The position numbers were made by a program, and so were the translations under genes. This document shows, one piece after another, positions 43,605-48,640 of a stretch of DNA of 64,000 nt. This DNA comes from Flavobacteriaceae bacterium. Its GTDB lineage: Bacteria; Bacteroidota; Bacteroidia; Flavobacteriales; Flavobacteriaceae. Where the stretch lies: positions 1-64,000 of the forward strand of contig JAQWJV010000041.1 of the NCBI GenBank assembly GCA_029248185.1, written 5' to 3'. The notes under the pieces are model-generated. The model had not been told where the DNA came from, made no database searches, and saw nothing but the letters and a program-made list of their open reading frames with translations. Numbering within the stretch: the first letter of the stretch is position 1; every line of letters starts with the position of its first letter.

Positions 43605-44526
43605 TTGAATTCATACGCTCAAAAAATTACAACTGCATTTCCCTGGATTGTAGCTTTATTTTCGTTCACGGCACTTCTCCATCCTCCCTTGTTCACTTGG
43701 TTTCAGGGAAGTCTTATCACATTGGGTTTGGGCGGAATTATGCAGGGTATGGGATTGACACTGCACGCCTCTGACTTCAAACAAATAGTAAAGCATCCCA
43801 AATGGGTGCTCCTTGGAATTGGATTACAATTTATTGTTATGCCCAGTTTGGGATGGGGCTTAGGAAAAGTTTTTGAATTACCCCCTTTTTTTGCAGTAGG
43901 GTTAATTTTAGTTTCTTGTTGTCCGGGGGGTACGGCTTCAAATGTGATTGCTTATCTGGCAAAAGCCAAGGTAGCGCTTTCTGTTTGCATGACGGCTATT
44001 TCTACTTTAGCAGCCATTTTAATTACCCCTTTTCTAACGAGTCAACTCTCTGGAAATTATGTTAATGTAAATGCTGCAGGCCTTTTGTATTCTACTTTAA
44101 AAGTGGTTTTATTTTCCCCTTTTATTAGGTGTTATTTTAAATCGATATCTCCCAAAACAGACTGCCAAAATATTACCTGTAGCACCTGCTGTAGCGGTTT
44201 TACTCATTACACTTATCGTGGCAAGTATCATGGGTCAGGGTAAGGAAATTATTTTAAATTCAGGAATGGATTTGATTCTAGCGTTGGTTTGTCTTCATTT
44301 GACGGGATTTGTACTCGGCTTTTTGATTAGTCTCGGTTTATTTAAAAACTGGAGTGTAGCCAAAACTATTTCGATAGAAGTAGGAATGCAAAATTCAGGC
44401 TTAGGGGTGGTTCTCGCTCGAGAAAATTTCACAAACCCCATGGTAGCCATTCCAGCCGCAATTTCAAGTCTGATTCATTCTTTATTAGGAAGCCTTTTTG
44501 TAAGTCTTTTTAAAAATAAAAGCTAA
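43605..44526 (+). pseudogene. Frameshifted bile acid:sodium symporter family protein
   Basis: A membrane transporter of the BASS/PanS family split between two frames. The first part (from a TTG at 43605) has IMQGMGLTLHASDF and the family motif CCPGGTASNVIAYLAKA. Near LLYSTLKVVLF it shifts out of frame; the +1 frame continues ...GVILNRYLP and joins QTAKILPVAP, LIVASIMGQGKEI and the C-terminal GMQNSGLG block. Removing one T from the TTTT run at 44112-44115 restores about 306 residues. It stands on the plus strand between pdxA and the DUF177 gene, splitting a cluster that is usually contiguous. Substrate unknown. Confidence 0.8.
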
Positions 44527-47503: not shown

Positions 47504-47511
47504 TATATTTG
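47504..47511 (+). promoter_or_regulatory. Perfect -7 box of the structured leader transcript
   Basis: TATATTTG matches TAnnTTTG exactly in the gap after the antiporter gene. The transcript would start near 47517-47520. No -33 TTG at the usual spacing. Confidence 0.45.
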
Positions 47512-47557
47512 AAATGAGAAGTTAACGCTGTGACAACAGCTAAGTTTAATTTAATGT

Positions 47558-47632
47558 AGAAAGGAGGTGTCTTATGTTTTATGAAAATCATTTGAGGAAT
47601 CGTGAACAGCTGACACCTACATTCGTAGGGTC
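47558..47632 (+). promoter_or_regulatory. Bistable RNA leader with 12-nt Shine-Dalgarno sequence
   Basis: AGAAAGGAGGTG (47558-47569) is complementary to the 16S rRNA 3' tail over 12 nt, as known for Flavobacteriia, and sits 4 nt before an ATG. Its 3' part AGGTGTC (47565-47571) pairs perfectly with GACACCT (47612-47618). The same downstream strand can instead fold as GAC-A-CCTAC (47612-47620) with GTAGG-GTC (47625-47632) around ATTC. The two folds exclude each other: one hides the ribosome site, the other frees it. A small stem GCTGT/ACAGC precedes at 47527-47540. A terminator follows. This looks like a cis-regulatory switch. I cannot match it to a known RNA family. Confidence 0.6.
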
Positions 47633-47639
47633 TCTGTAA
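47574..47639 (+). CDS. 21-residue leader ORF
   Basis: ATG to TAA, encoding a 21-residue peptide that starts MFYENHLRNR and ends PTFVGSL. It is the only start in the window preceded by a long Shine-Dalgarno sequence at proper spacing. There is no run of regulatory codons (no Trp, Cys or repeated residue), so classic amino-acid attenuation is unlikely. Its second half overlaps both alternative hairpin arms, so a translating ribosome would change the RNA fold. It could act as a leader peptide, a small protein, or simply a ribosome-loading device. Confidence 0.5.
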   Translation: MFYENHLRNREQLTPTFVGSL

Positions 47640-47655
47640 CTTTCCTTATCTATAC

Positions 47656-47683
47656 AAAGCGGACCGATGGGTCCGCTTTTTTT
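47656..47683 (+). terminator. Strong intrinsic terminator immediately before the 2OG oxygenase gene
   Basis: A 10-bp perfect stem (AAAGCGGACC with GGTCCGCTTT, loop GATG) runs into seven T at 47677-47683. The next start codon is only 12 nt later, leaving no room for a promoter in between. The terminator therefore either controls read-through into that gene or ends a stand-alone RNA. Confidence 0.85.
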
Positions 47684-47695
47684 AATTTATTTGCG

Positions 47696-48640
47696 ATGCA
47701 ACACATTCCACAAGCGGATCTTACCGACTTTCTTTCTGGCAACCCTGCTCAAAAAAACGCCTTCGTTCAACACATTGGAAGTTCATTTCAAGAGATTGGT
47801 TTTCTAGCATTGAAAGGTCATTTTTTGGAAGAATCCCTTCAAGAAGATTTATACCGGGAGATCAAAGGTTTTTTTGCAATGCCTACTTTAAATAAGGAAG
47901 CTTATGAAATTCAAGGAGGAGGGGGTCAAAGAGGCTATACTGGTTTTGGAAAAGAACATGCAGAAGGTCGAACAACAGGGGATCTCAAAGAATTTTGGCA
48001 TTTTGGCCAAGACCTTAACGCCCATCCGAATCTCAAAGGAATTTACCCCGATAACATACACGTAAAAGAACTACATCACTTTAATTCCGTAGGGAATCAA
48101 GTCTTTAAAAAATTAGAAAAAACCGCTGAAGTATTACTCCAGGCCATTGCTTTATATCTAGGGTTAGATGAATTTTATTTTGATCCCTATATCCAAGAAG
48201 GAAATTCCATTCTCAGGGCCATACATTATCCACCCATCACCCAAGCACCTGAAGAAGCAGAACGGGCGGCAGCGCATGGGGATATAAATTTAATTACTCT
48301 TTTAATGGGGTCCCAGGGGGGCGGTTTACAAGTATTAAACCGTAATGAAAAATGGATTGATGCAGTAGCTGCTCCAGATGAATTGATGATCAATATTGGA
48401 GATATGCTTTCTCGACTTACTAACAATCATTTACCCTCAACCATCCACCGTGTGGTAAATCCACCTCAAGAAGAATGGGGAAAGGCACGCTTTTCACTCC
48501 CGTTTTTTATGCATCCTGTTCCAAAAATGCCGTTGAATTGTTTGCCTCAAATGATCGATGAAACGCATCCCAAGAAGTATGAAGATATTGAGGCGGGTGC
48601 TTTTTTACATGAACGCCTGGTGGCCTTAGGTCTATTGTAA
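47696..48640 (+). CDS. 2-oxoglutarate/Fe(II)-dependent oxygenase (isopenicillin N synthase-like)
   Basis: Soluble oxygenase of the isopenicillin-N-synthase-like superfamily. The iron ligands are His and Asp in AAHGDINLITLL near residue 193 and the distal His in STIHRVVNP near residue 248; the 2-oxoglutarate Arg is in KARFSLPFF. An N-terminal DIOX-N-like part is present (PQADLTDFLSG). 314 residues. The substrate is unknown. It begins 12 nt after a strong terminator, so expression probably depends on attenuation by the upstream leader; a TAACTTTC sequence at 47637-47644 is an alternative weak promoter. It converges on the nucleotidyltransferase gene. Confidence 0.85.
   Translation: MQHIPQADLTDFLSGNPAQKNAFVQHIGSSFQEIGFLALKGHFLEESLQEDLYREIKGFFAMPTLNKEAYEIQGGGGQRGYTGFGKEHAEGRTTGDLKEFWHFGQDLNAHPNLKGIYPDNIHVKELHHFNSVGNQVFKKLEKTAEVLLQAIALYLGLDEFYFDPYIQEGNSILRAIHYPPITQAPEEAERAAAHGDINLITLLMGSQGGGLQVLNRNEKWIDAVAAPDELMINIGDMLSRLTNNHLPSTIHRVVNPPQEEWGKARFSLPFFMHPVPKMPLNCLPQMIDETHPKKYEDIEAGAFLHERLVALGLL

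Follow-up and report, generated by a model that had tools for sequence, protein, structure and literature searches.

In the genome of a Flavobacteriaceae bacterium (assembly GCA_029248185.1, contig JAQWJV010000041.1), a 2OG-Fe(II) oxygenase gene is preceded by a short element that combines a very long Shine-Dalgarno (SD) sequence, a small open reading frame (ORF), and a terminator. Is this element a leader that senses the state of the ribosome and sets oxygenase expression, as a first-pass annotation proposed, or is it a gene in its own right? The window that we analyzed is the whole stretch of 64,000 nt at positions 1 to 64,000 of the contig, and all features described here lie on its forward strand. 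Direct reading of coordinates confirmed the annotated parts: a 12-nt SD, AGAAAGGAGGTG, at 47558-47569, 4 nt 5' of the ATG at 47574; an ORF of 21 codons plus TAA at 47574..47639, encoding the peptide MFYENHLRNREQLTPTFVGSL; and an intrinsic terminator (H3, 47656..47683) made of a 10-bp helix (47656-47679) and seven T (47677-47683), which ends 12 nt before the oxygenase ATG at 47696. The annotation had also stated that no other gene start here has a long SD, and neither GAAAGGAGG nor AAAGGAGGTG was present elsewhere in the window. Upstream of the element lies a gene for a Na+/H+ antiporter (PF00999, 46210..47478), and downstream the oxygenase gene itself (PF14226 and PF03171, 47696..48640). Farther upstream, at 43605-44526, two overlapping ORFs of 212 and 102 amino acids look like the pieces of a single membrane transporter gene, separated by a frameshift that is either real or an assembly error.

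We evaluated the strength and rarity of the SD in its own genome (1.9-Mb assembly, 89% complete). The 16S rRNA gene had no match in this assembly, and the full 16S genes of five relatives from the same genus have tails ending in GGAACACCTCCTTTCT; if the organism's own tail is the same, the pairing extends to 13 nt, AGAAAGGAGGTGT at 47558..47570. With the genus tail, the energy of SD pairing was -21.2 kcal/mol for the small ORF and -19.9 kcal/mol for rpsU, compared with 0.0 for the oxygenase and 1.3 for the antiporter, so that the small ORF lies well beyond the < -13 kcal/mol of rpsU-type extended SDs. The exact 12-mer occurred once in the assembly, and 17 sites matched at least 11 of its 12 nt. 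At only two of the 17 is the site followed by the start ATG of a conserved gene, namely, rpsU and the small ORF, which therefore stands out among the long-SD sites of its genome alongside rpsU. The GTG frame at L130 starts 506 open codons inside a longer frame, and the remaining sites have shorter frames or no start; the conservation check covered the sites other than the short frames L122 (TTG, 64 codons) and L131 (GTG, 19 codons). A shorter pattern, AAGGAGG followed by ATG after 4 to 11 nt, gave 49 raw matches in the genome versus 42 for a backward control, and the genome may contain further, weaker SD users.

If the element is more than a chance assembly of signals, it should recur in relatives. 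A DNA search found it in 34 of 38 genomes of the genus. In the four others, the antiporter was either unmatched (three genomes) or matched only up to residue 275 of 422 (one genome), so the missing element may reflect incompleteness. Across a family sample of 199 genomes, nine hits of covariance model R1 reached 77 bits or more; two belong to the same genus and the other seven to one further genus each. In an order sample of 395 genomes, the model gave no strong hit beyond the organism's own genome. Weak R1 hits of up to 41 bits in the two samples were attributed to chance, being ∼50 to 215 nt long and in several cases lying on both strands of the same place. Five more genomes, G698, G648, G722, G679, and G744, came from searching 397 family genomes with a pattern. 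Among the 40 sites listed in this search, 14 are the element and 26 are not, and a pattern match alone is no evidence, since a backward control also matched in a number of genomes. Covariance model R2, run on the 397 family genomes, scored 17 hits with E ≤ 1e-6 that fall in 9 of the 237 genera; new among them were G688 and a copy in G670 that looks decayed. Outside its own genus, the element was thus present in 14 genomes from eight Flavobacteriaceae genera, and the stricter filters set for the two large scans may have let more distant forms escape. The nine genera have small genomes, with listed assemblies of 1.0 to 2.2 Mb, many of them incomplete. No second copy was found in the organism's own genome, where the other hits were short chance matches. 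A single hit in a viral contig (IMG/VR, L314:9937-9979) proved unrelated by eye: it is a phage-like gene that starts MAEEIMLTTVDN behind a strong, extended SD, GAAAGGAGGTGTC.

The small ORF was open in all 42 rows of the alignment, with a length of 19 to 21 codons, and at a shared position its stop codon swapped among TAA, TAG, and TGA. Much of the genus shares the peptide sequence MSYDNHLRNSRQQVPTxGPL, and an N-terminal half resembling MSYDNHLRN can be recognized in most of the nine genera. In genus g166 the peptide differs (MSNTKYLSWNGLNDAFLVI), and the SD, the length, and the stop are retained. A pN/pS of 0.60, calculated from 31 ORFs of 20 codons, indicates weak to moderate constraint, to which the hairpin overlapping the ORF adds its own. 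Residues 2 to 21 matched no Pfam family at E ≤ 1, a search that so short a peptide could escape.

The transcript also appears to have its own borders. At 47504..47511 we found TATATTTG, a match to TAnnTTTG, which we take to be the -7 promoter box of the Bacteroidota type, and from this box a transcript start near 47516 is predicted. A box of this type lies 21 to 24 nt 5' of the first hairpin (H1, GCUGU-GACA-ACAGC, 47527..47540) in 38 of 41 rows, against 2.7 expected from shuffling (L009 was too short and was dropped; L043 was misparsed and scored as a miss). With the box at one end and the terminator at the other, the transcript would measure ∼165 nt.

We examined whether the neighboring genes are as constant as the element. 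By eye, the antiporter gene lies directly 5' of the element at all 14 loci in other genera and, in the genus itself, in every row with a sufficiently long flank; at 12 of 12 loci outside the genus, the antiporter is itself preceded by an ORF that is presumably of the riboflavin synthase type. This constancy would fit an antiporter terminator and 3' untranslated region that contains a chance ORF, given that the antiporter is directly upstream at each locus with adequate flank. However, such a region would not be expected to carry a promoter box at fixed spacing, covarying hairpins H1 and H2, an invariant SD, and swapping stop codons, and G434, a genome of the same family, has the antiporter without the element. 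We consider this explanation most improbable.

The downstream side differs. An oxygenase gene follows the element on the same strand in 6 of the 14 genomes from other genera (G553, G722, G449, G502, G688, and G698), and other or opposite-strand genes follow it in the remaining 8 (G590, G475, G670, G584, G744, G648, G488, and G679). Conversely, BLAST found the element at only 8 of the best 80 oxygenase loci, seven of the type seen in the genus plus L063. Within the genus, the oxygenase follows the element at 30 of 31 loci (G007, G009, and G014 lie outside this set), and no oxygenase start was seen within the ∼400 nt read downstream of the element in G002. In the 30 parsed loci of the genus, the oxygenase ATG follows the U-tract by 0 to 18 nt, and the interval from the ORF stop to this ATG contains no TAnnTTTG box; in the parse as a whole the L252 row was misparsed, and L262 remained unparsed, yet the oxygenase is visible there. 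With no box between and no room for a separate promoter, oxygenase transcripts in this genus probably come from polymerase reading through the terminator. In G553 (L263), a TAnnTTTG box is present before the oxygenase.

These data bear on the proposal that the element is a regulatory leader in which passage of transcription through the terminator depends on the state of the ribosome at the small ORF. The arrangement in the genus, where the oxygenase comes next at 30 of 31 loci with no box in between, is what such a leader predicts, and control of the oxygenase could hold in part there. As the main role it is unsupported, because a different gene lies downstream in 8 of the 14 genomes from other genera and no oxygenase start was seen in the stretch read in G002; the position upstream of an oxygenase is not constant, which speaks against membership in a class of cis-acting leaders. 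The distance between the stop codon and the terminator differs among rows, which argues against gating of the terminator by a terminating ribosome, and a ribosome at the stop codon, given the size of the ribosome footprint, should end short of the terminator. No conserved antiterminator was seen by eye; a candidate pairing between the ORF end and a terminator arm was inconstant over about six rows and was rejected. The link to ribosome state made in the first-pass annotation remains plausible, as the SD of rpsU is nearly identical, whereas an oxygenase leader is unlikely, and control of the oxygenase would be no more than a side effect, confined to some lineages.

Together, the promoter box at a fixed distance, the open ORF with swapping stops, the covarying hairpins, and the varying downstream gene point to a small gene of its own. 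Judged by comparison among genomes, from which its borders, ORF, hairpins, and SD are drawn, the element is a real, conserved, and previously unlisted small gene whose extended SD is, beside that of rpsU, a second one in Flavobacteriaceae.

How is the SD of this gene controlled? The RNA folds with an energy of -52.6 kcal/mol, compared with -35.2 ± 3.8 kcal/mol for shuffled sequences (z, -4.57). Its minimum-energy fold hides the SD by means of a stretch resembling the anti-SD, UCCUUAUCUA (47643..47652), which lies 3' of the stop codon and pairs with 47557-47565, A47648 being bulged; we call this pairing P_SD. We evaluated the structure on alignment A3, comprising 37 of 42 rows (without L009, L028, L030, and L031, each closely resembling another row, and the truncated L043); alignment A1 left out L009, L026, L028, and L043 and kept 28 of 32 unique rows. 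H1, P_SD, hairpin H2 (47606..47637, in the 3' half of the ORF and ending in the stop codon), and H3 together had 92.3% of their cells paired in A3, compared with 36 to 55% when the structure was slid along the alignment. Double-sided changes affected 85 cells, against 22.8 ± 5.6 in shuffled alignments, none of which reached 85 in 500 trials, and this score is favored by the fact that the structure was picked with the aligned sequences in view.

The individual helices differ in their support. In H1, 99.5% of the cells are paired and three of five pairs changed on both sides, with a GACA loop that is invariant in the 37 rows. H3 is paired in 100% of cells, and 6 of its 10 pairs changed on both sides. 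The same proportion changed in H2 (6 of 10 pairs; 77.6% of cells paired), for which 179 of 500 shuffles matched the number of covarying pairs and none matched the number of cells. P_SD is paired in 96.3% of cells with one covarying pair and, UCCUUAUCUA being nearly invariant, is supported by conservation rather than by covariation; genus g166 retains five of its nine pairs.

The first-pass annotation had the SD hidden by a different helix, a 7-bp pairing of AGGTGTC (47565-47571) with GACACCT (47612-47618), which an alternative hairpin would compete away. The rival arm, GTAGGGTC at 47625-47632, is indeed present, and its hairpin, H2, covaries, as the annotation had asked of both helices. The annotated helix itself can form, but it has no covarying pairs, and its 92.3% of paired cells (35 to 50% when slid) is no better than the 92.0% of shuffles. 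In the full RNA of the window, mean pair probabilities were 0.90 for P_SD, 0.72 for H2, and 0.07 for the annotated helix, which dominated only when the RNA was cut near the stop codon (0.90). A switch during RNA synthesis, from the annotated helix to P_SD and H2, is thus predicted for the window. Across the 37 rows of relatives, the full-RNA mean pair probabilities of P_SD and H2 were 0.43 and 0.49, respectively.

The near identity of the two SDs in this genome relates the small gene to rpsU. In the sections of McNutt et al. (2023, PMC9976891) on which we draw, ribosomes lacking bS21 are reported to favor mRNAs with an extended SD, including rpsU, in F. johnsoniae, and a survey of annotated protein-coding genes in 200 Flavobacteriales suggests that SD-dependent control is limited to rpsU. 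We therefore compared the two SDs in the genomes from other genera that carry the element. Among the 13 that have rpsU, its SD is strong in 9 (-17.4 to -20.6 kcal/mol), weak in G475 (-9.9 kcal/mol), and lost in G502, G688, and G488 (-1.3 to -2.2 kcal/mol); no rpsU match was found in G679. The SD of the element is retained in G502 (-21.3 kcal/mol), G488 (-17.0 kcal/mol), and G475 (-20.6 kcal/mol), and the copy in G688 has the same SD stretch as that in G502. Since the element keeps its SD where rpsU has lost it, the element is not simply tied to rpsU autoregulation, and a clean link between loss of the rpsU SD and presence of the element was dropped because the two do not track each other cleanly. 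Within one genus, G670 (L359) combines a decayed-looking element and a weakened SD with a strong rpsU SD, whereas in G475 (L350) the element is intact and the rpsU SD is weak.

In the bS21 proteins of these genomes, residue 54 by our count, a Tyr reported to be important in the model organism, is His in G502, in G488, and in one of the two G688 copies. A linked change of the anti-SD pocket where the rpsU SD is lost (L327, L338, and L340, the rpsU genes of G502, G488, and G688) is possible, and the pattern is suggestive only. The rpsU genes L326 and L336, from G592 and G434, lack the SD and keep Tyr54, so the SD of rpsU has been lost in more than one context. The two rpsU copies of G688 (G688:C6 and G688:C2) differ and come from an assembly with 7% contamination, perhaps of mixed genomes.

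We propose that the element is a self-contained small gene, with an RNA of ∼165 nt, whose output is switched on by the ribosome state that also activates rpsU, and we give this reading a probability of about 0.5. The dependence on ribosome state, like the switch and the read-through, is what we infer beyond the comparison. Transcription would start from the gene's own -7 box near 47516 and the RNA would end at the terminator, its SD being held by the anti-SD-like stretch as long as it is untranslated. Ordinary ribosomes, with the 16S tail hidden by bS21, bS18, and bS6, would use this SD poorly. A 30S subunit whose tail is free, for instance one lacking bS21, could out-pair the internal helix that holds the SD (-21 versus -12 kcal/mol; calculated value for the helix, -11.8 kcal/mol) and start the ORF, and a ribosome at the stop codon would then cover the anti-SD-like stretch and keep the SD open. 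In the genus, the oxygenase just downstream would be transcribed through the terminator.

The same SD would also suit a noncoding or dual-function RNA that retains or titrates free-tailed 30S subunits, the ORF serving only to turn ribosomes over. The constancy of SD, ATG, ORF length, and stop beside a drifting peptide (pN/pS as above, and an unrelated peptide in g166) agrees with this idea, as does the persistence of the element SD where rpsU lost its own. Titration would, however, not need the MSYDNHLRN-like half that most of the nine genera share, and we regard this alternative as possible if doubtful. Within the reading of a small gene switched on by ribosome state, a more specific and rather improbable version makes it a dedicated sensor of ribosome composition. 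In this version, subunits lacking bS21 would open the RNA when they initiate on it, and either the freed anti-SD-like stretch would pair with the SD of rpsU in trans or the peptide would act on the 30S platform. If that were true, the two extended-SD genes would form a feedback circuit that sets the share of specialized ribosomes. The gene is a candidate for a second natural target of specialized ribosomes and could serve as a ready reporter of when ribosomes whose anti-SD is free appear. Because it persists in genomes whose rpsU has lost the SD, the roles of the two genes could be told apart, and its equally strong SD illustrates that counts based on annotated protein-coding genes can miss small genes.

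We compared the element with known systems. Rfam gave no match at gathering score in the whole window. The best-scoring weak match, L20_leader (RF00558), mostly covered the terminator hairpin, with 19.0 bits versus a gathering score of 58.7 and with broken pairs; ohsC, U6, and mir-329 also scored below the cutoff, and the idea of a 6S-like or other catalogued RNA, having no match to back it, was abandoned. The element was undescribed among the matches listed in a literature search of titles and abstract openings, whose coverage leaves out most subscription papers and preprints. Small dual-function RNAs form a general kind of RNA with a short ORF, and the element shares with them a short ORF and a terminator on a brief, autonomous transcript; unlike them, its outstanding feature is the complementarity to the 16S tail. 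The closest likeness is to the autoregulation of rpsU by ribosomes lacking bS21 in Flavobacteriales (PMC9976891): both have an extended SD of 11 to 13 nt, stronger than -13 kcal/mol and a few nucleotides before the ATG, with a TATATTTG box upstream, and both belong to a clade in which SDs are rare at other genes. The element differs in encoding a peptide of ∼20 residues unlike bS21 and in having a terminator, hairpins that covary, and an anti-SD-like stretch of its own, and by eye no hairpin like H1 was present in the rpsU leaders inspected.
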